The translations under genes were made by a program, and so were the position numbers. This document shows, piece after piece, positions 37,751 to 48,207 of a stretch of 64,000 bases of DNA (positions are counted from its first letter, which is position 1; each line of letters starts with the position of its first letter). The stretch comes from a virus. Below the pieces are notes generated by a model. That model was not told the origin of the DNA. It saw only the letters and a list, made by a program, of their open reading frames with translations, and did no database searches. Location: IMG/VR virus record IMGVR_UViG_3300043424_000354, positions 1 to 64,000 of that record, one strand, 5' to 3'.

Positions 37751-38079
37751 TATCGTGTTACCTCTGGATTGATTACAACAATACCTTCTAGTACTCTTAG
37801 AGTTTCTTCGTCGCTTTCGATTTCTATGTCGTAAACATACCTTCCTGCTTTTAATGCGCTTGTTTGTGTAGCAGTAAGAGAAATAGTAATCTCACCGTCA
37901 GTTGGCGATGATGCGCTTGCGGTAAAACTAGTTGCTGTTGAAGAGTAATAAGATTTTCTCAGTTGGGCAGTTACTGTATAATCTGTTAAATCTTTCACAT
38001 CACCGTTTTGGTCGCTTACCGTAATTGTCAAGGAGTATGTTGTTCCCTGATCAATATACAAATTTTGAATAGTCGCCAT
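37750..38079 (-). CDS. Beta-sandwich baseplate or fibre protein (BppU-like N-terminus)
   Basis: 109 residues. IQNLYIDQGTTYSLTITVSDQNGDVKDLTDYTVTAQLRKSY and the ending KAGRYVYDIEIESDEETLRVLEG look like the Ig-like N-terminal domain of BppU-type baseplate proteins. First gene of the minus-strand fibre run, with an exact late box in front and the plus-strand gene block on the other side. Confidence 0.7.
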   Translation of the reverse strand: MATIQNLYIDQGTTYSLTITVSDQNGDVKDLTDYTVTAQLRKSYYSSTATSFTASASSPTDGEITISLTATQTSALKAGRYVYDIEIESDEETLRVLEGIVVINPEVTR

Positions 38080-38089
38080 GAGAAACCCT

Positions 38090-38097
38090 TATAAATT
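38090..38097 (+). promoter_or_regulatory. Late-box variant TATAAATT on the plus strand
   Basis: One base off the late consensus, 32 bases before the first glycosyltransferase-like ATG (38129). It is the only promoter-like element seen for the plus-strand block. Confidence 0.45.
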
Positions 38098-38106
38098 ATT
38101 CTACAC

Positions 38107-38114
38107 TATTTATA
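38107..38114 (-). promoter_or_regulatory. T4-type late promoter box TATAAATA (fibre run)
   Basis: Exact TATAAATA on the minus strand, 28 bases before ATG 38079; it faces away from the plus-strand box at 38090-38097, making a divergent late promoter pair whose transcripts overlap. Confidence 0.75.
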
Positions 38115-38128
38115 AAATTGAGAGTTGT

Positions 38129-38806
38129 ATGAGAACCATTGTGACGATTAAATATGGAACAAAATATTCCGCAGCAGACGTAAATAAAATCGTCGAAGAT
38201 ACTGGCAGGAAGTATACCTACGTTTGTTTCACTGACGATCCTACCGATTTAGATCCAATTGTCCTTGCTTGCCCTCTTCCCAGTGACATCGAAGGTCACT
38301 GGTATAAGGTTTGGTTGTTCAGTCAGAAAGGATTTGGCGATATTTTGTATCTTGATTTAGACGTCAGAATACAAAAAAATATCGATCATCTATGGAATTA
38401 CCTTGACGAACGCCCAACAATAGTTTATACTTACTGGAAAGATAGAGGTTTCCCTGATCATGAAGGTGATACTCACGACATGCGGTATTTGAGTAATTAC
38501 AACTCAAGTGTCATGTTGTGGAAAGAAGGGTCTGGTAAATATATTTGGGATCATTTTAATTCTGACCCTGATTACTTCATGCTGAAATACTTTGGCGACG
38601 ACAGGTTTCTTTGGCATGAAACTTTCGGGTTGAATTGGTTTCCGAAAGGCGAGTTTTATTCTTTTGTTTATGGCGCAGACTATTATGGAATTGATGATCA
38701 CAACGAATCTTTCTGTTATAGACCAGACTACGCCATCGCATTATTGAATGGATTAGATCAGTTCCCTGGGGCAGATAAAGAGTATGATGAACTTCGTATG
38801 CATTAA
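38129..38806 (+). CDS. Putative glycosyltransferase, copy 1 of 4
   Basis: 225 residues from ATG 38129, preceded by GAGAG (an upstream in-frame ATG overlaps the divergent gene). It shares the plan of the next three genes: an N-terminal strand with the KYGTKYSAADVN motif, YVCFTDDPTDL, an IPS-type segment and YLDLDVRIQKNI with a DxD-like acidic motif, then a second domain ending CYRPDYAIALLNGL. The layout is that of a GT-A-type glycosyltransferase; donor and target are unknown. It is in tight operon order with copies 2-4. Confidence 0.75.
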   Translation: MRTIVTIKYGTKYSAADVNKIVEDTGRKYTYVCFTDDPTDLDPIVLACPLPSDIEGHWYKVWLFSQKGFGDILYLDLDVRIQKNIDHLWNYLDERPTIVYTYWKDRGFPDHEGDTHDMRYLSNYNSSVMLWKEGSGKYIWDHFNSDPDYFMLKYFGDDRFLWHETFGLNWFPKGEFYSFVYGADYYGIDDHNESFCYRPDYAIALLNGLDQFPGADKEYDELRMH

Positions 38807-39542
38807 GTGGGGTGATAAGTATCCTGCTAAATATGTAAACAACCTATACAAGATGGTGCAGAAACACTACGCCAAACCATTTACATTCACATGTTATACT
38901 GATGATGTGGAAGGAATTGAATGTGATACTGCTCCGATTCCTAATGATGGTATTCTACATCCAAAATATTGGTTTGGTAAAGAAACATTTTGTTTTGATC
39001 GCGCCAAGTTCTTAGTTTTCAATTCACATAACTGGTTAGGATACGAGGGTAACTGGTGTTTCTTTGATCTTGACGTAGTAATCCAAGAAGATATAACTGA
39101 CATAGAGGAACTTGCGCAGAAACCTCGGATTATTCAGTGTCGCTGGCAACCAGAATCGCAGAAACATGATAGATTTTTTATAGAGATACGAGGAACATTT
39201 TATAATTCCAGCATGATGGTTTGGCCTGGTAAATCATGCGAACATATTTACAGAGACGTATTAAGTAATTCAGAATCCGTGTTCAAAACTTTCTTCAAGG
39301 GAAGTGACAACTATCATTACTGGAGGCAGCGAGATTTCTGGAAGGATATTCCAGGTGGTTGGGTTTATTCATGGAATCGCGGTAAGCACCACCCGAAAGA
39401 TGTAGAACGTTTTAAATTTCGCTCAGACGCTAAGATCTGTTTATTTAATACGGACAATGTTCCGCATCCATCTGCCAGAGAACAGGAAGAACTGTCTGAC
39501 TGCTTAGACGAAAACATTATTAGATTGTGGAATTGCGAATGA
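38784..39542 (+). CDS. Putative glycosyltransferase, copy 2 of 4
   Basis: 252 residues; its ATGATG lies 23 bases inside copy 1. It opens NFVCIKWGDKYPAKYVNNLYKM, then FTCYTDDVEGIE, PKYWFGKETFCFDRAKFLVF and FFDLDVVIQEDI (DxD-like). The central SSMMVWPGKSCEHIY and C-terminal KICLFNTDNVPHP blocks are shared with copy 3. GT-A fold is inferred from the pattern. Confidence 0.75.
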   Translation: MMNFVCIKWGDKYPAKYVNNLYKMVQKHYAKPFTFTCYTDDVEGIECDTAPIPNDGILHPKYWFGKETFCFDRAKFLVFNSHNWLGYEGNWCFFDLDVVIQEDITDIEELAQKPRIIQCRWQPESQKHDRFFIEIRGTFYNSSMMVWPGKSCEHIYRDVLSNSESVFKTFFKGSDNYHYWRQRDFWKDIPGGWVYSWNRGKHHPKDVERFKFRSDAKICLFNTDNVPHPSAREQEELSDCLDENIIRLWNCE

Positions 39543-40357
39543 GAGTTAATTACGTTTGTTGTAAATGGGGAACCAAATATTCAGCAGAGTTTGTCAATCG
39601 TCTCTACCGAATGGCAAAGAAGCACACACCAGATAGATTTGAGTTTCATTTCTATTGCTATACAGACAACAGTGAAGGTTTTGATCATGAAATTAAAGTC
39701 ATCGACTTCCCAGATATCCCAGACATCCACCCAAAATATTGGTTCGGAACAGAAGATTTCAAATATGGTATGGCACGTTGCTGGGATCGACCCAAGACAT
39801 TTATCTTTAACACCCACAACTTCGCCGAAGATAAACCAACTGGAAGATTTGTATTCTTCGATCTGGATGTGATTATCCAGAACGACTTGTCACCAATCAT
39901 CACATACGATTTTGAGAATCCTACTAAGTTACGTTCTTGGTGGCAGGATCCGCGACCAATGAAGACTCGTAACTTCAAGTTATCACATGGAGCATATACG
40001 AATGGTAGTTGCATGGTGTGGTCAGATGATCAGACAGAATGCATTTGGCAGGATGTTCTAGAACATCAAGAGCGTATTTGGTTTACATTCACCGATGGAA
40101 CTGACAACTATCACAGTTGGCGATGGGGTGATTTTAGTAATACGCCTCTTTGGAAGCATTTTCCAAACACCTTTGCCTACTCGTATAACAGAGGCAGAGA
40201 CTGGAAGTCTAGTGACTTAGAAGTAGGAATATATAGAAAGAACTGTATCCTCTGCGTTTTTAATGTGGACTTACTTCCATTTCAGGATAACAGTAGAGGT
40301 AAAGTGAAGCAAGAGTCGCTAGTCGACCCTGATCTTTTAGAACATTGGAATGTATGA
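39539..40357 (+). CDS. Putative glycosyltransferase, copy 3 of 4
   Basis: 272 residues from ATG 39539, ATGA overlap with copy 2. NYVCCKWGTKYSAEFVNRLYRM, FYCYTDNSEGF, PKYWFGTEDFKYGMARC and FFDLDVIIQNDL mirror copy 2; NGSCMVWSDDQTECIW and CILCVFNVDLLP follow. Copy 2 and copy 3 look closest to each other, copies 1 and 4 more distant. Confidence 0.75.
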   Translation: MRVNYVCCKWGTKYSAEFVNRLYRMAKKHTPDRFEFHFYCYTDNSEGFDHEIKVIDFPDIPDIHPKYWFGTEDFKYGMARCWDRPKTFIFNTHNFAEDKPTGRFVFFDLDVIIQNDLSPIITYDFENPTKLRSWWQDPRPMKTRNFKLSHGAYTNGSCMVWSDDQTECIWQDVLEHQERIWFTFTDGTDNYHSWRWGDFSNTPLWKHFPNTFAYSYNRGRDWKSSDLEVGIYRKNCILCVFNVDLLPFQDNSRGKVKQESLVDPDLLEHWNV

Positions 40358-41040
40358 TGATTAATATTTACACAGTGAAGTGGGGATTTAAGTATGGACC
40401 AGAGCACGTTAATCATATCTTTGAACAGTGCCGACAACATATTACGAGGGAATTTAAATTCTATTGCATTACAGAACATGCGGTAGACTTAAATCCAGAG
40501 ATTACTGTTATTCCGATTCCCGAGAATAATTACTACGAAAAATGGTGGAACAAACTGCATTTGTTTGATCGCAGAGTGATTAGGCAACAGGGAGAGAAAC
40601 TATTCTTAGATCTAGATATCGGCATTCAAAAAAATATTGATTGTATTGTTGATTATGATCCAGAAAATACATTAACGTTTGTTCGTACGCATTGGCACAA
40701 TATGATACAAATGAAAGAAGATACTAAAGAGATCCCACACAAATACACGGATTTAAATTCGAGCGTATTACGTTGGAACGATAGATTAGATACCAATAAA
40801 ATAACTAAATTCGTTCGAGATTATCCTGATCAAATGTTCTACTACTATAGAGGTCTTGATAATCTTTTCGGACATCAGAGAGATCGCCTACTCAATATTA
40901 AATTTTTCCCAGATGGTTGGGTATACAGTTACAACTACGGATATATGTGGCCGTCTGATGTGAGAGAGCGAGTCCATCGAGACGAACCACTTATTTGCTT
41001 ATATGATTCAATGGAAAGACCACAAGATGTTAAACTATAA
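40354..41040 (+). CDS. Putative glycosyltransferase, copy 4 of 4
   Basis: 228 residues, ATGA overlap with copy 3. INIYTVKWGFKYGPEHVNHIFEQ, FYCITEHAVDL, YEKWWNKLHLFDRRV and LFLDLDIGIQKNI keep the cassette plan with a DxD-like motif. Ends ERPQDVKL, overlapping the following methyltransferase-like gene by 14 bases. Confidence 0.75.
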   Translation: MMINIYTVKWGFKYGPEHVNHIFEQCRQHITREFKFYCITEHAVDLNPEITVIPIPENNYYEKWWNKLHLFDRRVIRQQGEKLFLDLDIGIQKNIDCIVDYDPENTLTFVRTHWHNMIQMKEDTKEIPHKYTDLNSSVLRWNDRLDTNKITKFVRDYPDQMFYYYRGLDNLFGHQRDRLLNIKFFPDGWVYSYNYGYMWPSDVRERVHRDEPLICLYDSMERPQDVKL

Positions 41041-41689
41041 TTACTTGAACAATTATCGAAATTGGGGTGATGGTCTGGAAAAGATCGCACACGAGATGCC
41101 GTGGAAGCACGAAGACTTTCGTAAGTCTCTAAATCCGAATACAATGGATGCTGCTATTTGGTTAGTAGAAGAACTACAGAAACACATAGATGTATCTAAG
41201 AAGTTGGATATCACAATTCTAAATTCTTGGTTAGGGTTTCCCCTTGTTCCGCTTCTATGTGAAAATCTAAACGTTAAAAAAATCAACTTGATTGACATCG
41301 ACAAAGATGCATTAGAACTGTCAAAGGTTTTTAACCGATATTATAATAATGAGCAGGGTGTTGAATTAAACCACATCAACTGGGATATCCCTTTCGCATA
41401 TCACGATATTAATGCGTTGGAAACTGATGTGGTAATTTCCCTTTGTTGCGAAACAATGTATCCTCTGAAGAAAATGACAACTGCGAATCCAGATTGCATC
41501 TTTGCCTGCCAGTCATCAAATGTATTCAAAGAAATGTATGGTATCAATTGTGTTCCGACAATTGAAGACCATATTGAGAATGTTGGTGTTGCCGCTGTTG
41601 GATATCATGGATCCATTCAGCAATCCTACTGGTCGTGGGATGGTAAGGTTGAGTTTGATCGCTTTATGGTAATCGGTAAGAAAACTTAA
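41027..41689 (+). CDS. Methyltransferase-like protein ending the plus-strand block
   Basis: 220 residues from ATG 41027. A Rossmann-type pattern ILNSWLGFPLVPLLCENLNVKKINLIDIDKDALELSKVF resembles a SAM-binding site with the Asp after the second strand, and LETDVVISLCCETMYPL follows. The glycine motif is degenerate (GFPL), so activity is uncertain. It ends in convergence with the oxygenase gene, sharing 4 bases. Confidence 0.6.
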   Translation: MLNYNYLNNYRNWGDGLEKIAHEMPWKHEDFRKSLNPNTMDAAIWLVEELQKHIDVSKKLDITILNSWLGFPLVPLLCENLNVKKINLIDIDKDALELSKVFNRYYNNEQGVELNHINWDIPFAYHDINALETDVVISLCCETMYPLKKMTTANPDCIFACQSSNVFKEMYGINCVPTIEDHIENVGVAAVGYHGSIQQSYWSWDGKVEFDRFMVIGKKT

Positions 41690-42363
41690 CCGAAGTGCGA
41701 GGCATCCTCGCCTGTAATATCTTCGATCATTGACCGCCAGATTTCAAGGTGCGGAACTACGTAACCAAGAGTCAGACGCTTTGCTGTATTTCCGCAACAG
41801 TGATAAACAATCTTGTCTTGTTCCTGCTTGTTACCGAAATACCCAACCTTACACGACCAACCTTTCGGATCGATCATCGTAACAACTTCCTTTGTTACTG
41901 GATCTAGGTATCTGAAAAATCCACCATTTTCTTCTGAGTTATATGTGATCAGAATATTATAACCAGCAGCATTCCAATTAGTATGCCACCCCATAAATCC
42001 ATCTTCGGGATAATATGTGAAGACTGCGTTATTTCTGGCGCCCAGATAACTGATCAATTCTCTATTAGTTTCTTGCTGTCTTCTACCATACTCTGATGGG
42101 AACCACGGTTGCCCATGCGCTTGCGACATATCTGTGCAAAAAGCAACCTCAGGGAATCCCACATGTCGTTCGCCTTTGTTTCTGATATGATTCATATACT
42201 GTTCGTCGGTTGCTGTGATGTGGGTTAATCCCCCTGCACGATCGCTTTGCATTTTTTCTGGTCCGAGAACAAGATGCTGATCGTTTTGTTCAAAAAACCA
42301 TTCAGTAAATGGATCCAGAATATCTTGTAATTCTTGTGAGACAGAACTTGTAAATTTCAGCAT
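41686..42363 (-). CDS. 2-oxoglutarate/Fe(II) oxygenase-like protein
   Basis: 225 residues. The double-stranded beta-helix pattern is YYPEDGFMGWHTNWNAAGYNILITYN, then GGFFRYLDP, VTMIDPKGWSCKVGYF and YHCCGNTAKRLTLGY. The first iron site is H-T-N rather than the classical H-x-D; the distal His and the RLTLGY arginine look preserved. Such oxygenases are widespread in aquatic T4-like phages; the substrate is unknown (protein or glycan hydroxylation possible). Convergent with the plus-strand block. Confidence 0.8.
   Translation of the reverse strand: MLKFTSSVSQELQDILDPFTEWFFEQNDQHLVLGPEKMQSDRAGGLTHITATDEQYMNHIRNKGERHVGFPEVAFCTDMSQAHGQPWFPSEYGRRQQETNRELISYLGARNNAVFTYYPEDGFMGWHTNWNAAGYNILITYNSEENGGFFRYLDPVTKEVVTMIDPKGWSCKVGYFGNKQEQDKIVYHCCGNTAKRLTLGYVVPHLEIWRSMIEDITGEDASHFG
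41697..41711. terminator. Small hairpin at the convergent junction
   Basis: GCGAGG CAT CCTCGC, a perfect 6-bp stem, just past the plus-strand stop and inside the last codons of the oxygenase gene. No T-run follows on either strand; a weak bidirectional terminator at most. Confidence 0.35.
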
Positions 42364-42936
42364 TCAATAATTCCTAAAATGATCAATAGTTATTTTGTTC
42401 CACACCAACTTGGCACTACATAAATCTTTACCAATGCGCAACATAGTTTCAGCAGTAGGATTAAATCCTCTCTTACTATACTTCACTAATCGTTGGTATG
42501 CCATAAATGGGTGAATATTGTTTTTTCTAAGTCGTAGAGTCTTACTATGTATATCATCCCAAAACTCCTCGGCATAATATATGTTCTTACCGTCAAATGA
42601 AATACAGCAAACAGTAAAGTCATAGTTATGTAATGTGCGAATTGGGTCTACGTATGGATAATCTGTTACTTGTATCTTTTTCCCAAACAAATTAAAGTCG
42701 TAAGAAAACTCGTTTTTATTTGTCTCGGGAGATATTAGTCTAAGATCTTGAATAAACTGTGTTGGATTATCGCTATAGAAATCATAATCGCTTATCGCAG
42801 TATTAGTAAGATGCGAAGTGATTGCGCCTCCTGCCAACCAATAGTTGTAGGATACCTTTCCTATTTTTTGTTTTAAGTTTTCAAATAAATCAAAAAATGG
42901 TTTGAATTTTTCTTGGTCTGCTGGTTTTACGATCAT
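42364..42936 (-). CDS. Nucleotidyltransferase-like protein
   Basis: 190 residues from ATG 42936, in a TGATG junction with the upstream stop. The segment YWLAGGAITSHLTNTAISDYDFYS shows the GG followed by D-x-D of Pol-beta-type nucleotidyltransferases. A conserved IQVTDYPYVDP then HNYDFTVCCISFDG and RLVKYSKRGF follow, as in tRNA-nucleotidyltransferase-like phage proteins. Substrate unknown. Confidence 0.72.
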   Translation of the reverse strand: MIVKPADQEKFKPFFDLFENLKQKIGKVSYNYWLAGGAITSHLTNTAISDYDFYSDNPTQFIQDLRLISPETNKNEFSYDFNLFGKKIQVTDYPYVDPIRTLHNYDFTVCCISFDGKNIYYAEEFWDDIHSKTLRLRKNNIHPFMAYQRLVKYSKRGFNPTAETMLRIGKDLCSAKLVWNKITIDHFRNY

Positions 42937-43631
42937 CAATCTAGTAGATTATGTGGGATAGTATAATGATAAATCACAATAGGTTGCCCCTGTAATTCTT
43001 CTTCTCTATACCCCACAACAAAGTTCCATCTTGCATCAGGATCTGGGAATCTACCTGTCTTTACGCCGAAATCATAAAGATTTAGGAGACGCCACATTGT
43101 GAATGTATCCCATTCAATTGCTGCAGCAGGATAGTGTTTTCGATCCCAATCAGGTTTGTTCTGCTCCCAATACTCACCATACCATGCACGCATGAGGTTT
43201 AGAGTCTGGGGATTGTTGCGGTAAATAAAGATACCACAGTGTTCAGTCATCTCTTCAGTTTCAGACAACTTAGTCAGTGCTGCATTATACGGACGATTGG
43301 CGGTGAAGAGAACATCTACATCATCTGGGATCTGATCAAAAATCTTTTGAATATCCTCGTGTTCGACTTCGGTGTCGCAGTCCATATAGACAGTCAGGTC
43401 ATACGGAGTTTGATCAAGCGCCCATAGTTTGGCACGCTTATCGCGAGGAACATTTTCAGTTACTACGTTGTCGAAAATCTCATAGTCGTCTGGTTGCACC
43501 CATTCTTCGTGTGTGAAGAATGTGATTTTTGCATCAGGAAAAAAATCTTTTAGGGAAATCGCCGAGTTTCTTGCTGCCCTATAGTATCCTTTACGCCTAG
43601 TGGCAACATACAGGAATCCATTATTCGGCAC
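42936..43631 (-). CDS. Glycosyltransferase-like protein (GT-A, DxD)
   Basis: 231 residues. GFLYVATRRKGYYRAARNSAISLKDFFPDAKITFFTHEEW at the N-terminus, RAKLWALDQTPYDLTVYMDCDTEV with the DxD, and CGIFIYRNN are typical of nucleotide-sugar transferases. It is not one of the four plus-strand copies; it is a different family on the other strand. Confidence 0.75.
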   Translation of the reverse strand: MPNNGFLYVATRRKGYYRAARNSAISLKDFFPDAKITFFTHEEWVQPDDYEIFDNVVTENVPRDKRAKLWALDQTPYDLTVYMDCDTEVEHEDIQKIFDQIPDDVDVLFTANRPYNAALTKLSETEEMTEHCGIFIYRNNPQTLNLMRAWYGEYWEQNKPDWDRKHYPAAAIEWDTFTMWRLLNLYDFGVKTGRFPDPDARWNFVVGYREEELQGQPIVIYHYTIPHNLLD

Positions 43632-44076
43632 TAACTGCTTCCTTGACGATTGCAGTATTCGCTTCTTCTTGCTGTAGAAGCATAACTGTATATGCAGTGA
43701 CTTCCATGATGTTCTTTGCCTTACGAATCTTTGACTTCAGTTCGCGATTCTTTGATGCTTTGACGCTATCGATTTCAAACGCATCCAGTTTGGCAGCGAA
43801 CAATTGCTCCTGCTGCATCCGTGTACGGTCAACCTTTTGCCGTTCAATATTGTGCTTGATTTGTTCATTGCGATCATCAAGACGTTTCTTCGTATTTGCA
43901 TCGATCTGTTCGATGCTATACTTCTTCAACAATTCCTCGAAGTCGCGATTAGTGCCATCGTTCATAATTGACGCTGTGACTCGTTTCCCAGTATCAGGGT
44001 AAACAAATTCTGCGATGACGTGCTGTTTTTCCTTATTTGCCCAATAAGGGTTTTCAATTGTGCGATTGGTAGTCAT
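43621..44076 (-). CDS. Hypothetical protein with coiled coil
   Basis: 151 residues. A short N-terminal beta part (VIAEFVYPDTGKRVTASI) and a long charged helix (TKKRLDDRNEQIKHNIERQKVD). It is followed directly by the GT-like gene (11-base overlap) and has an excellent early promoter, which makes the oxygenase-to-coiled-coil group an early operon. Family unknown. Confidence 0.6.
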   Translation of the reverse strand: MTTNRTIENPYWANKEKQHVIAEFVYPDTGKRVTASIMNDGTNRDFEELLKKYSIEQIDANTKKRLDDRNEQIKHNIERQKVDRTRMQQEQLFAAKLDAFEIDSVKASKNRELKSKIRKAKNIMEVTAYTVMLLQQEEANTAIVKEAVSAE

Positions 44077-44143: not shown

Positions 44144-45727
44144 TTATGCAGTGCGAACCCAAAGTTTTACGGTTGACACTGTCTCTTTAGTTTCAATTAC
44201 TGTTGCGCCTGAATATGTTCCGGAATAAGTTCCCGAGTAGTTGCCTACGTAGTTACCGGAGTAGTTTCTGGAACCTGCGAAGTAACCAGTATAAAATCCT
44301 GTAAAGAATCCTTGGTAATTTCCAGTATATGTTGCAGTTCCAACATAATTTCCGGTAAAGTTATTTGCATATGTTCCGGAATAAGTTCCCGCATAGTTGG
44401 CGGCATAGTTTCTAGAACCAGAGAAGTATCCAGTATATGTTCCTGAATATGTTCCTGCATAGTTAGCAGCATAGTTTCTAGATCCAGCAAAGTATCCAGT
44501 AAAATTACCCAGATAGGTTCCGCTGAACGTACCCGAGAAATAACTTATATAATTTCCCGCAAAAGCAGTACCAGCATAACCACCATAGAAAACAGAATAA
44601 TACCCAACATACCCAGTTGCATATCCTGCGCCAATGTAGTTACCGCTGAAATTGCTAGAATAAGTTCCTGCATAGTTACCAGCATAGTTCCTAGAACCTG
44701 CGTAATACCCTACGTAGTTGCCAGAGAAATTGCCAGCATAGTTGCCTGCGTAATTTCTAGAACCCGCGTATGATCCAGTATAATTTCCTGTGAAATTGCC
44801 TGTATACGTTCCTGAATAGTTTGCCGGACCTACATAACCGCCACTGAAGTTGTTGGCATAATTACCAGAATATGCGCCAGCATAATTACCAGAGTAATTT
44901 CTAGAACCAGCATAGGTTCCTGCGTAGTTACCTGCGTAGTTACCTGCGTAGTTTTGCGGAGTTACTTGTTCACGAGTATCTGCAAACTCATCACCCATTT
45001 GCACCCAAGTGCCGCCAGATGGAGCAGTGGATTGAATCTTATATGTCCCAACGCCGCTATCGATAATTCTATTGCGGAAGTTTGGTAGCATCTGAAGAAT
45101 CTCAGAAGATGACATTTCTTTGACATCTTTCGTATTGATCAGTTTCAGTGGTTTTAGATTGGCATCCGAAAGAGAAGTAGCAGCAGTTTTCTGCCAAAGA
45201 TATGTTGTGGTATTCCCACCATTAGCAACATCGGTTAGCGTGTAACGAGCAACCCACGTCCCGCCTGACGGAGCAGAACCTTGTAGGCGATATTGACCCG
45301 CAGTATACGAAGTCTCCGAAACCATCGCATTAATTGCATAGTCCAGAATTTCGGTATCGATTTGACCATCAGTCATTTCGCGGATACCCGAATCATATTT
45401 CAGCGGACGATTTGTAATACTTTCTGATGCTGCAGCAGAGACCTGCTTTGCGTAGTATGTAACTGTGTCTAATGCACCAGTAGCAGGGTGAGTGCCTGTT
45501 GCTTCTTGGCGATCAGTGTCAGCAAAAGTTCCGATTGCAGTTCCTGCGCCACTATTGTTTGTGGTGATATTTAGTTCGCCAGTGCCAGTACCGTCGGAGT
45601 TAGCACCGAAAGAAACTGTCAATGTTTGGGCGATGTAGTTCTTGACTTCATCAGTAGTCATCTCCTGCAAACCTTGCCAGTTTGCAGAAGAAACAGGTGT
45701 TGCCGAGGATTTGTTTCTCAATACCAT
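44144..45727 (-). CDS. xYxG-repeat structural protein A
   Basis: 527 residues. Residues 1 to about 258 form a soluble head with two SAPSGGTWV-type blocks and WQKT strands. From about 259 to 505 nearly all residues follow a tetrapeptide x-[Y/F]-[A/S/T/V]-[G/N], broken by SRNYxG units; 22-residue and 48-residue supra-units recur between SRN marks. The C-terminal 20 residues (ETKETVSTVKLWVRTA region) match the end of protein B. The composition suggests a rigid, repetitive fibre or adhesin; fold unknown. Late position in the fibre region suggests a virion protein. Confidence 0.8.
   Translation of the reverse strand: MVLRNKSSATPVSSANWQGLQEMTTDEVKNYIAQTLTVSFGANSDGTGTGELNITTNNSGAGTAIGTFADTDRQEATGTHPATGALDTVTYYAKQVSAAASESITNRPLKYDSGIREMTDGQIDTEILDYAINAMVSETSYTAGQYRLQGSAPSGGTWVARYTLTDVANGGNTTTYLWQKTAATSLSDANLKPLKLINTKDVKEMSSSEILQMLPNFRNRIIDSGVGTYKIQSTAPSGGTWVQMGDEFADTREQVTPQNYAGNYAGNYAGTYAGSRNYSGNYAGAYSGNYANNFSGGYVGPANYSGTYTGNFTGNYTGSYAGSRNYAGNYAGNFSGNYVGYYAGSRNYAGNYAGTYSSNFSGNYIGAGYATGYVGYYSVFYGGYAGTAFAGNYISYFSGTFSGTYLGNFTGYFAGSRNYAANYAGTYSGTYTGYFSGSRNYAANYAGTYSGTYANNFTGNYVGTATYTGNYQGFFTGFYTGYFAGSRNYSGNYVGNYSGTYSGTYSGATVIETKETVSTVKLWVRTA
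44206..44952 (-). repeat. 12-bp-period repeat array encoding xYxG tetrapeptides (protein A)
   Basis: Roughly 60 tetrapeptides in register. Wobble positions differ from copy to copy, so the repeats are maintained at the protein level rather than by recent duplication. Confidence 0.8.
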
Positions 45728-45730
45728 AGT

Positions 45731-47722
45731 TTACGCAGTTCTAATCCACAACTTAATTGTTGAAACTGTATCTTTAGTCGCTTGAATCGTCGCACCACTA
45801 TAATTACCAGTAAAGGTATTTATATACGAACCAGAATAGTTTCCGGTGTAAGTTCCGCCGCCTGCATAGTTACCACTGAAGTTGCCCGTGTAATTTGATG
45901 TTGTAGAGAAGGTTCCTTGATAGTTGCCAGAGTAGTTTGCTGGTCCTGTGAAGTACCCCGTATAGAAACCTCCTGGTCCAGAGAAATATCCAGTGTATGG
46001 AGTTGGAGGAACAAATCCGTTATAGTTTCCAGTGTATGATGTACCGTATGCTGGACCTTGGAACGAAACTGTTCCGGAATAATTACCAGCAAAGTTACTT
46101 ACGTATGTTCCGTTATATGTTCTTGAACCTGAATAATATGCTATACCAGTATATCCTGGACCTGTGCCAGCATAGTTGCCAGAATAGGTTCTGGATCCCG
46201 AGTAGGTTGCTGGTCCTACATAATTGCCAGTAAAAGTGCCTCCTGGCGAAGAGAAGGTGTTGGTATAAAATACAGGCAAGTATCCTATACCTGGAATAAA
46301 CTGCGTTTCCTGATATGAACCAGAATATGCTGGACCAGGACCAGTAAAGAATCCAGGACTATAGTAAACTGTCTGCAAACCACTATATGGATCAGGTATC
46401 TGATTTGAGAAATAATCAGTGTAATAATTAGTCCCCGAGTAATACCCTGTATAATAATCTGCCATAAAGGCACCAGTATATCCTGGTCCAGGAGCACCAC
46501 TATAATTACCTGTATATGTGGCAGTTCCTGCGTAACTACCAGCATAGTTTCTCGAACCAGAGTAATATGCTACACCAGAATATGTTGCTCCTGTTCCGGC
46601 ATAATTACCAGCATAGTTTCTTGAACCAGAGTAGTAAGATGCGTAATTACCAGTATATGATGGACCTGGACCACTAAAGAACGGCGAATAGAATGGGGAT
46701 CCAGTATAAGTGCCGGAATAACTGATCAGTGGACCTAGTGGTGCAGTATATGTTGTTCCAGTATAACTTACTGCATTAGTAAAGGTGTTTGAATACCCAG
46801 CAGTTCCAGCATAATTACCAGAAAAGTTACCTGTGTAATTTGAGGTTGTTGAAAAAGTGTTTGAATATGTTCCGCTGTAATTTACTACGCCACCATAGTT
46901 GCCGCTGTAGTTACCAGTGAAATTTCCGCTGTAGTTACCAGCATAATTCTGCGGAGAAACTTGCTCGCGAGTATCGGAAAACTCATTGCCCATCTGAACC
47001 CAAGTTCCACCAGAAGGTGCTGATGATTGTAATTTATAGGTTCCGATTCCGGTATCGATAATTCTATTACGGAAGTTCGGTAGCAGTTGTTCGATTTCAG
47101 ATTCTGTCATCTGCTTGCAGTTGCTGCCGTTGTAACTGCGCAACGGAGTATAATCTGAATTTGGAGAAGATGATGCTACTGTTTTTTGCCAGAGATATGT
47201 AACAGTGTTTCCGCCTTGCGCAGTATCTGTTAGCGTATATCTGGAAACCCAAGTTCCACCCGACGGAGCAGATGCCTGTAGTTTATATTGTCCAGCAGTA
47301 TAACTAGATTCGGCGACCATCGCCTCAATGCAGAGATCCAGCACGCCATCAATATCACCATCACTCATCTCTTCAAGATGAGAATCCCATGCGAGTGGTC
47401 TGTTGGTGATGCTTTCTGATGCCGCAGCAGTTACCTGCTTTGCGTAGTACGTGGTAGTTGTAGTATTTCCAGTCGCGGGATGCGTGCCAATCGATTCAGT
47501 TCTATTGGTATCAACAAAAGATCCGATTGAAGTCCCAGAACCCGAATTGTCTGTTGTGATGTTTATTTCAGCAGTACCTGTACCGTCAGTTACTGCTGCG
47601 AATTTTTCAGTGATAACATTGGCAATATAATTTTTTACCTCTGAATCGGTCATAGTCTGCAAACCGCTGATGTTTGCAGAAGTGATTGGGGACCCTGATG
47701 CTTTGACCTTTAGAGGATTCAT
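45731..47722 (-). CDS. xYxG-repeat structural protein B
   Basis: 663 residues, paralogue of protein A: same head (LQTMTDSEVKNYIANVI, AAASESITNRPLAWDS, TYLWQKT, SAPSGGTWVQMG), same QNYAGNYSG transition near residue 260 and same end (TVSTIKLWIRTA). Its repeat half is less regular, with Pro-rich spacers (SGPGPSYTGN, PPTPYTGYFSG) between xYxG units. The 3 bases between the genes and the shared ends indicate tandem duplication followed by divergence of the repeat. Confidence 0.8.
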   Translation of the reverse strand: MNPLKVKASGSPITSANISGLQTMTDSEVKNYIANVITEKFAAVTDGTGTAEINITTDNSGSGTSIGSFVDTNRTESIGTHPATGNTTTTTYYAKQVTAAASESITNRPLAWDSHLEEMSDGDIDGVLDLCIEAMVAESSYTAGQYKLQASAPSGGTWVSRYTLTDTAQGGNTVTYLWQKTVASSSPNSDYTPLRSYNGSNCKQMTESEIEQLLPNFRNRIIDTGIGTYKLQSSAPSGGTWVQMGNEFSDTREQVSPQNYAGNYSGNFTGNYSGNYGGVVNYSGTYSNTFSTTSNYTGNFSGNYAGTAGYSNTFTNAVSYTGTTYTAPLGPLISYSGTYTGSPFYSPFFSGPGPSYTGNYASYYSGSRNYAGNYAGTGATYSGVAYYSGSRNYAGSYAGTATYTGNYSGAPGPGYTGAFMADYYTGYYSGTNYYTDYFSNQIPDPYSGLQTVYYSPGFFTGPGPAYSGSYQETQFIPGIGYLPVFYTNTFSSPGGTFTGNYVGPATYSGSRTYSGNYAGTGPGYTGIAYYSGSRTYNGTYVSNFAGNYSGTVSFQGPAYGTSYTGNYNGFVPPTPYTGYFSGPGGFYTGYFTGPANYSGNYQGTFSTTSNYTGNFSGNYAGGGTYTGNYSGSYINTFTGNYSGATIQATKDTVSTIKLWIRTA
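45790..46945 (-). repeat. xYxG repeat array (protein B)
   Basis: Less regular than in protein A and interrupted by Gly-Pro-Gly and Pro-rich stretches; the units NYSGNFTGNYSG and YYSGSRNYAGNYAG recur. Confidence 0.75.
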
Positions 47723-47724
47723 TA

Positions 47725-48207
47725 TTAATTCAGCCTGTTACCGCTTGAGTCATAAACAATGAGATTTGTTACGCGATACCAGTCTTGAGTATCCTGAGCA
47801 ACCAATTCTACCGATGAGTATGGTGCCAAATTCACACCAGCGTTGGTTGTTCCACCATCAATAACGTCTGAAGTATTTGGGTATACAACAATGGTAACTG
47901 CAGTTGTGTTAACAACTTTGATATTAATACCCGCAGCAGCAGTAGGTAACTTAACACCCTGCGCCGCACTGGCAGTTGTTACAATATTGACTGTCTTTGT
48001 TAGCGCAGTGGCATCACCTTGCGTAGATCCTGCTGCGGAAACTGTTCCTGACACCGAAGTGGTAAGAGTGCCTGTTAATGTCAAATCTGCAAAAGAAGGA
48101 CTGTCACCAGATTCATACTTGTCTGTATTCAAATTGCTGAAGTTGTCATCAACCTCAGTATTTGTCAGCGGAGTCCCCTTTACAGATCTAAGGGTAAGAG
48201 TGCTCAT
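47725..48207 (-). CDS. Fibre-type protein
   Basis: 160 residues. LTLRSVKGTPLTNTEVDDNFSNLNTDK is a recurrent fibre N-terminal motif (xLTxxEVDxNFxxL). A short Thr/Ala-rich segment and a compact C-terminal half ending LIVYDSSGNRLN follow. Likely a small adaptor or cap on the repeat proteins; inferred from motif and place. Confidence 0.72.
   Translation of the reverse strand: MSTLTLRSVKGTPLTNTEVDDNFSNLNTDKYESGDSPSFADLTLTGTLTTSVSGTVSAAGSTQGDATALTKTVNIVTTASAAQGVKLPTAAAGINIKVVNTTAVTIVVYPNTSDVIDGGTTNAGVNLAPYSSVELVAQDTQDWYRVTNLIVYDSSGNRLN

Follow-up and report, generated by a model that had tools for sequence, protein, structure and literature searches.

To our knowledge, the main example so far of a hairpin layout in which the tip of a phage fibre lies in the middle of the chain's sequence is the short T4 fibre tip. 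In the T4 gp37 trimer, each chain starts at the knob, reaches the tip and turns around, with both termini at the knob (PMC9603124). Here, we analysed a 64,000-nucleotide stretch of DNA (the window), which is part of the 108,631-base IMG/VR virus record IMGVR_UViG_3300043424_000354 and encodes two tandem paralogues, proteins A and B, each with a long array of x-[YF]-x-G units between a common head and a common C-terminal strand. Sequence comparisons revealed mirror symmetry of the arrays about their midpoint, equal and length-coupled arms, a unique motif at the midpoint and a conserved multi-gene cassette next to the fibre genes; a first, sequence-only reading of this DNA had missed both the symmetry and the cassette. 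We consider it likely that A and B are tail-fibre proteins in which each chain forms a giant out-and-back hairpin that turns at the middle of the array. The record carries T4-like myovirus genes (portal, major head protein, tail sheath, terminase, baseplate hub lysozyme, and gp8), and its scaffold protein has its nearest relatives in Prochlorococcus and Synechococcus phages (~36% identity). A T4-like baseplate gp8 and a DUF4815 protein are encoded upstream of A and B, and this baseplate gene neighbourhood fits with a fibre role; a putative function as host-range adhesins is plausible.

The arms of protein A, measured from the array anchors to the tip motif YSVFYGGYAGTA, are 126 and 124 residues long. 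The general form of this motif, Yx[LVRP][FY][FY]GG[FY], occurs once per array, starts at 0.46–0.49 of the array and is thus centred on its exact middle; it is fairly conserved and not hypervariable. Among 49 A-type or single-copy relatives, a midpoint motif ([FY][FY]GG[FY] or close) divides arms of 57–284 residues, and the lengths of N- and C-terminal arms are almost perfectly correlated (r = 0.997), with a difference of −1 in 28 of the 49 proteins and within four residues in 47. Because related proteins are not independent, we also compared near neighbours, i.e., non-overlapping pairs of differing length that were picked by head identity. In these 24 contrasts, changes in the N-arm were matched by changes in the C-arm (r = 0.988; median mismatch of one residue), as in the pairs 98/98, 22/22, 73/74, 20/20, 100/100, and 105/104, with two clear exceptions. 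An unstructured or silk- or elastin-like flexible linker, in which low complexity is kept via mutation bias, would agree with the low confidence of structure prediction over the array and with a composition made up mostly of G, Y, T, S, N, A, and F across relatives. However, disorder would not explain why arm lengths stay within one to two residues of each other while size varies five-fold, nor why the aromatic register between distant segments is kept, and we regard this as the least probable of the readings considered here.

The arms also mirror each other in aromatic register. Without recourse to the motif, the correlation of Tyr, Phe, and Trp at positions i and S−i was highest when S nearly equalled the two array ends added together and reached r values of up to 0.95, while the best axis overall in token-shuffled arrays gave about 0.35. 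When the relatives L034, L204, L142, and L207 were drawn as hairpins, nearly every Tyr/Phe and Gly came to lie opposite its own kind, and in L034 and L204 each 6-residue break in one arm stood opposite a break in the other. The smallest example, L302, which belongs to the divergent second set described below, reads YTGTYTGTYTGTYTGTY-ARYYGGSHQGN-YSGNYTGNYTGNYSGAY, with five Tyr on either side of ARYYGGSHQG. In the window, gapped mirror alignment gave p ≤ 0.003 for A and a score of 48.7 versus 33.9 ± 4.4 for B (p ≤ 0.002). The gapped version was used for B proteins because the ungapped test is weak for many of them; B-type relatives reached z-values of 1.2–7.7, most of them above 3, based on few shuffles. 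In a divergent second set, with axes searched within ±30 residues and near-duplicates reduced by hand to single entries, the best axis lay at most seven residues from the midpoint in 21 of the 23 listed arrays, while about a quarter would be expected by chance.

The array itself is strongly periodic. In A, 67 of the 251 residues from 257 to 507 are Tyr or Phe, 51 of these 67 are followed by Gly at +2, and the spacing between aromatics is 4 (37 times), 1+3, or 6 (eight times, at SRN breaks). Spaced [YF]x[GNDS]x[YF] events numbered 44 in A compared to 7.8 ± 2.6 (maximum 17) in 2000 shuffles, and 37 in B compared to 8.7 ± 2.8. Array autocorrelation showed maxima at 4, 8, 22, 26, 44, and 48 residues, and DNA self-identity peaked at shifts of 66 and 144 nucleotides. 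Thus, the x-[YF]-x-G array and the higher-order units of 22 and 48 residues described in the sequence-only reading are real, as are the Pro-rich breaks of B, whose array contains 25 Pro compared to two in A. That reading had also placed both open reading frames (ORFs) exactly (positions and minus strand in Table 1) and correctly described a common head and tail, since the heads are 67% identical and both C-termini read VST[VI]KLW[VI]RTA. Its statement that no named fold with this period is known was supported as well: A and B matched no Pfam, PHROG, or PDB family above chance, the model of A had no significant Foldseek match in PDB and BFVD, partly since half of the model is unfolded, and no earlier report of such repeats was found in the literature searched.

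These strong periods of 4, 22, and 48 residues could point to a monomeric or trimeric beta-solenoid or a triple beta-spiral shaft with a Tyr ladder, in which the mirror would simply follow from regular repetition every 4 and 22 residues. Yet a periodic array has axes every half period and not one preferred axis at the exact midpoint, whereas in most A-type relatives the best axis lies at the midpoint, together with a motif that is not repeated, and the arms stay equal through insertions and deletions. In addition, AlphaFold2 built no solenoid and Foldseek gave no match, which makes this fold very unlikely, if slightly less so than a flexible linker. The flat solenoid offered by the sequence-only reading, taken as a monomer, is not supported, as its absence from the AlphaFold2 model is joined by a single-midpoint mirror that a solenoid does not need. 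Likewise, silk- or resilin-like strands describe a length-matched, mirror-registered array poorly, and, instead of a freely evolving repeat, we found halves that are kept equal in length and aromatic register. A collagen-like fibre was considered and rejected, as the dominant period is 4 with aromatics and short PGEPG or GPPGP pieces occur only in B relatives.

Equal, mirrored arms with a midpoint motif are most simply explained by an antiparallel hairpin. The main rival is an antiparallel homodimer, which would leave the same trace of mirror symmetry and equal arms: residue i of one chain would pair with S−i of its partner, and the midpoint motif would mark the twofold axis. Such a dimer would, however, form a bipolar filament with heads at either end, which is odd for a protein attached to the baseplate. 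The midpoint motif is turn-like: it consists of Gly-Gly with aromatics on both sides or, in many B proteins, is rich in Pro and Gly (PGEPGD). Structure prediction of a single chain is good for both the head and the C-terminal strand, and T4 gp37 offers a precedent for a hairpin. We therefore consider the homodimer improbable, though clearly less so than a solenoid or a linker.

In the proposed hairpin, the chain would leave the base, formed by the three-module head, and extend as a long beta-strand of x-[YF]-x-G units, turn at the mid-array motif (YSVFYGGYAGTA in A), and run back as a length-matched second strand, whose last segment, VSTVKLWVRTA, would dock at the base. Head and tail would thus lie at the base, and the tip would be the middle of the sequence. 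With Tyr/Phe opposite Tyr/Phe and Gly opposite Gly, one face of the hairpin would form an aromatic/glycine zipper. Several chains, probably three by analogy with other phage fibres, would bundle into a six-stranded antiparallel needle. At a rise of about 0.33 nm per residue for an extended strand, the fibre would measure about 41 nm for A and about 64 nm for B, and its length would evolve almost only via equal block insertions in both arms. While the mirrored and coupled arms are read directly from the sequences, we infer that the partners belong to one chain rather than to an antiparallel dimer, that the chains trimerise into a virion fibre, and that the tip binds the receptor.

Several observations weigh against this hairpin. 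Arm equality is broken in two proteins, L062 (by 23 residues) and L072 (by 18), the mirror score for A alone is modest, and B-type arrays require gaps for the mirror. Arms of different proteins also mirror each other (mean r of 0.40 compared to 0.59 for arms of the same protein), and match fairly well, since they have their periods of 4 and 22 residues in common; the strongest evidence is therefore the coupling of arm lengths together with the midpoint motif, and not the register alone. No simple mirror or axis was found in the 3347-amino-acid protein of phage C48C1 (OQ984149), which has globular inserts, or in several long relatives; C48C1-type giants and some long arrays may contain several hairpins or lateral domains. 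In the AlphaFold2 monomer model, the array is unfolded (predicted local distance difference test, pLDDT, of about 22), so that no structure model directly supports the pairing of the arms. Low pLDDT can occur for intertwined multimers that are predicted as monomers. In the same model, strands 457–471, 474–481, and 499–526 mirror strands 294–308, 282–289, and 248–266, and the head is mostly predicted with a pLDDT of 70–93, with helices at 25–42, 120–137, and 207–224. Finally, A and B showed no homology to gp37 in hhalign comparisons of head and full-length profiles (probability of about 0.1%). As a positive control of the mirror test, gp37 was weak (His r of 0.53, axes at 948.5 and 941.5, near its known tip at residues 932–959) and was not used as proof.

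To define the family, IMG/VR was scanned with A, the A head, and two neighbours, yielding about 200 loci at up to 80 per scan, with several hundred relatives beyond; GT231 and ox225, two proteins of the cassette described below, have over 500 relatives in IMG/VR. A scan with the bare DNA pattern for YxGNYxGNYxG, which used neither head nor neighbours as query, returned 78 stretches, and nearly all long arrays among them belong to proteins that have the same head and the same neighbours. Bacterial genomes contained 33 stretches with the YxGN pattern, and the cassette was present on one, a phage-like contig in a Bifidobacterium metagenome-assembled genome (MAG). This contig (L232), filed under a Bifidobacterium breve MAG, most likely comes from a phage and was mis-binned. 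C48C1 (Kyanoviridae) stood alone among 50,697 annotated phages in having relatives of all parts of the cassette side by side. A tree of the heads supported an A-like clade (100), a B-like clade (84), and the two together (95), with single-copy relatives outside, in line with tandem paralogues from one duplication as suggested by the sequence-only reading. Array length varies greatly, from 121 to 833 amino acids among relatives and ~3070 in C48C1, while head and tail remain constant. Tandem pairs of head-bearing Tyr/Gly proteins at L268, L275, and L282 are apparently separate duplications from that of A and B.

Table 1 Features of the fibre genes and neighbouring cassette in the window (residue numbers refer to the respective protein)
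Feature	Position in window	Strand	Basis or remark
p160, small conserved protein upstream of fibre genes	47725..48207	-	in syntenic block of closer relatives
Protein B, upstream paralogue	45731..47722	-	663-amino-acid ORF; Pro-rich breaks; B-like clade in head tree
B head, residues 1-256	46955..47722	-	67% identical to A head
B array, residues 257-641	45800..46954	-	midpoint near residue 449 (SNQIPDPYSG)
B C-terminal strand ATIQATKDTVSTIKLWIRTA	45734..45799	-	from ORF
Protein A, downstream copy	44144..45727	-	527-amino-acid ORF; putative Tyr/Gly hairpin fibre; A-like clade in head tree
A head, residues 1-256	44960..45727	-	three tandem modules (EMTxxEI helix + strands); proposed fibre base
A outward (N) arm, residues 257-379	44591..44959	-	mirror alignment p ≤ 0.003
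A tip motif YSVFYGGYAGTA, residues 377-388, array midpoint	44564..44599	-	motif search and arm-length comparison
A returning (C) arm, residues 385-505	44213..44575	-	hairpin drawing and arm-length comparison
A C-terminal strand ATVIETKETVSTVKLWVRTA	44147..44212	-	kept in nearly all relatives; model pLDDT 92 at end
p151, 151 amino acids, proposed fibre chaperone	43621..44076	-	variable N-terminal half, conserved helical-looking C-terminal half (alignment)
GT231, GT-A-like glycosyltransferase candidate	42936..43631	-	invariant D84-x-D86 (alignments)
NT191, optional insert	42364..42939	-	weak nucleotidyltransferase-like match
ox225, 2-oxoglutarate (2OG)-Fe(II)-oxygenase fold protein (predicted)	41686..42363	-	H127-x-N129 ... 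H188 ... R196

The genes downstream of A form a conserved cassette. In non-redundant loci, p151 lies directly upstream of GT231 wherever that position is visible (72 of 72, from 76 GT231 loci), ox225 follows within two genes downstream of GT231 in all 76, and 61 of the 62 loci with enough DNA encode a Tyr/Gly protein upstream of GT231. All 14 GT231 relatives compared match Pfam Glycos_transf_2 below the cut-off (best E-value of 0.0015), and matches of GT231 to GT2, GT8, and Nucleotid_trans likewise all remain below the Pfam cut-offs. NT191, which is present in a minority of relatives, matches PHROG families of unknown function (5e-15) and the nucleotidyltransferase family phrog_1614 at 0.032. 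The AlphaFold2 model of ox225 (pLDDT 92) matched prolyl hydroxylases in Foldseek (probability 1.00, E-value of 2e-5, TM-score of about 0.4), and the modelled protein thus shows the double-stranded beta-helix fold of 2OG-Fe(II) prolyl hydroxylases. Like PHD2 and bacterial P4H, ox225 has two invariant His, 61 residues apart, followed by an Arg, but Asn replaces the acidic ligand, so that the HxD/E...H triad is absent from all aligned members. The H-x-N is constant in every aligned member including C48C1, and ox225 is possibly an altered oxygenase. Profile searches of PDB with GT231 and ox225 gave no match, ox225 had no match in Pfam, and p151 belongs to no Pfam family.

Judged from its position directly downstream of the fibre gene, like gp38 after gp37, p151 probably helps fibre folding, and the GT-like and oxygenase-fold proteins, by position, probably modify the fibre or its partner; these roles rest on gene position and are guesses. 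If the enzymes do modify the fibre, the cassette would constitute a dedicated phage tail-fibre finishing pathway. Alternatively, the targets of the GT-like and oxygenase-fold proteins might be surface sugars of the host or a different virion protein, and their genes might simply accompany the fibre genes, a somewhat doubtful but substantial competitor. More GT-like genes lie on the other strand (38078–41689, weak Pfam match) and could act on host polysaccharide, and Pro-free arrays (L014, L142) exist despite ox225. Conversely, p151, GT231, and ox225 adjoin the Tyr/Gly protein in almost all loci, the distant C48C1 among them, whereas the convergent genes vary. The same coexistence of Pro-free arrays with ox225 led us to reject array proline as a universal target of ox225.

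The 38078–41689 region comprises five consecutive plus-strand genes convergent to the cassette, four of which have a WGxKYxxxxVN-like start and GT-like features; one has a weak GT8 match, and the genes are kept in close relatives and variable in distant ones. In L014 (8236–9558) and L015 (9336–10658), a gene for a 440-amino-acid protein, which by eye resembles adenylate-forming enzymes, lies between the single fibre gene and p151. Upstream of B, p160 starts with LRSVKGTPLTNTEVDDNF, which by eye resembles the start of the A and B heads, LKVKASGSPITSANISGL, and is possibly a common docking motif.

Taken together, these proteins may represent a new fibre class across many uncultured T4-like phages, a proposal that we put forward tentatively: a giant beta-hairpin coded by mirror symmetry, held by a zipper of aromatics and glycine and lengthened solely through paired insertions into the two arms, encoded with its own cassette in which a chaperone, a sugar transferase, and an unusual H-x-N oxygenase would chemically finish the fibre. 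The mirror rule would make pairing partners, tip position, and fibre length readable from the sequence of a low-complexity array that resists structure prediction. The equal growth of distant halves is a strong long-range constraint in a class of proteins usually considered freely variable, and hundreds of unannotated genes in uncultured phages gain roles and names to test.

Of the known systems, the T4 gp37 needle (PMC9603124, PMC6957217) is closest in layout, as in both the chain would run from the base to a mid-sequence tip and back, and both belong to T4-like phages. For A and B, the out-and-back path is indicated at the sequence level by coupled equal arms, mirrored aromatics, and the midpoint motif. 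The arms of gp37 are about 50–60 residues long (residue ranges in PMC9603124) compared to up to 284 in A-type proteins, and its core is lined with HxH iron motifs, whereas His is near-absent from the A/B arrays, which use Tyr/Phe and Gly instead. The C-terminal end of gp37 (...NYIVRLA) resembles that of A and B (...KLWVRTA) in style, by eye only, while mirror-coupled repeats and genes for GT-like and oxygenase-fold proteins set A and B apart from gp37. The position of p151 directly after the fibre gene recalls T4 gp38, to which no homology of p151 was found, and its variable first and conserved second half resemble the Pam3 fibre chaperone gp25, like gp38 one of the TFA proteins, which has a variable N-terminal and a conserved C-terminal half (PMC9608196). 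Among annotated phages, C48C1 encodes a 3347-amino-acid protein (L001, 2557–12600), annotated only as hypothetical, with arrays of the Tyr-Thr-Arg and Tyr-x-Gly types; of its about six globular inserts, the largest (residues 1791–2142) starts at the array middle. Its array of about 3070 residues, with several globular inserts and Tyr-Thr-Arg repeats, is unlike those of A and B, but the recognisable head, the YxG/YTR arrays, and the C-terminal strand ETYTLYVRVA are as in the A/B family, and the gene order p151-GT231-ox225 is the same as in the window.

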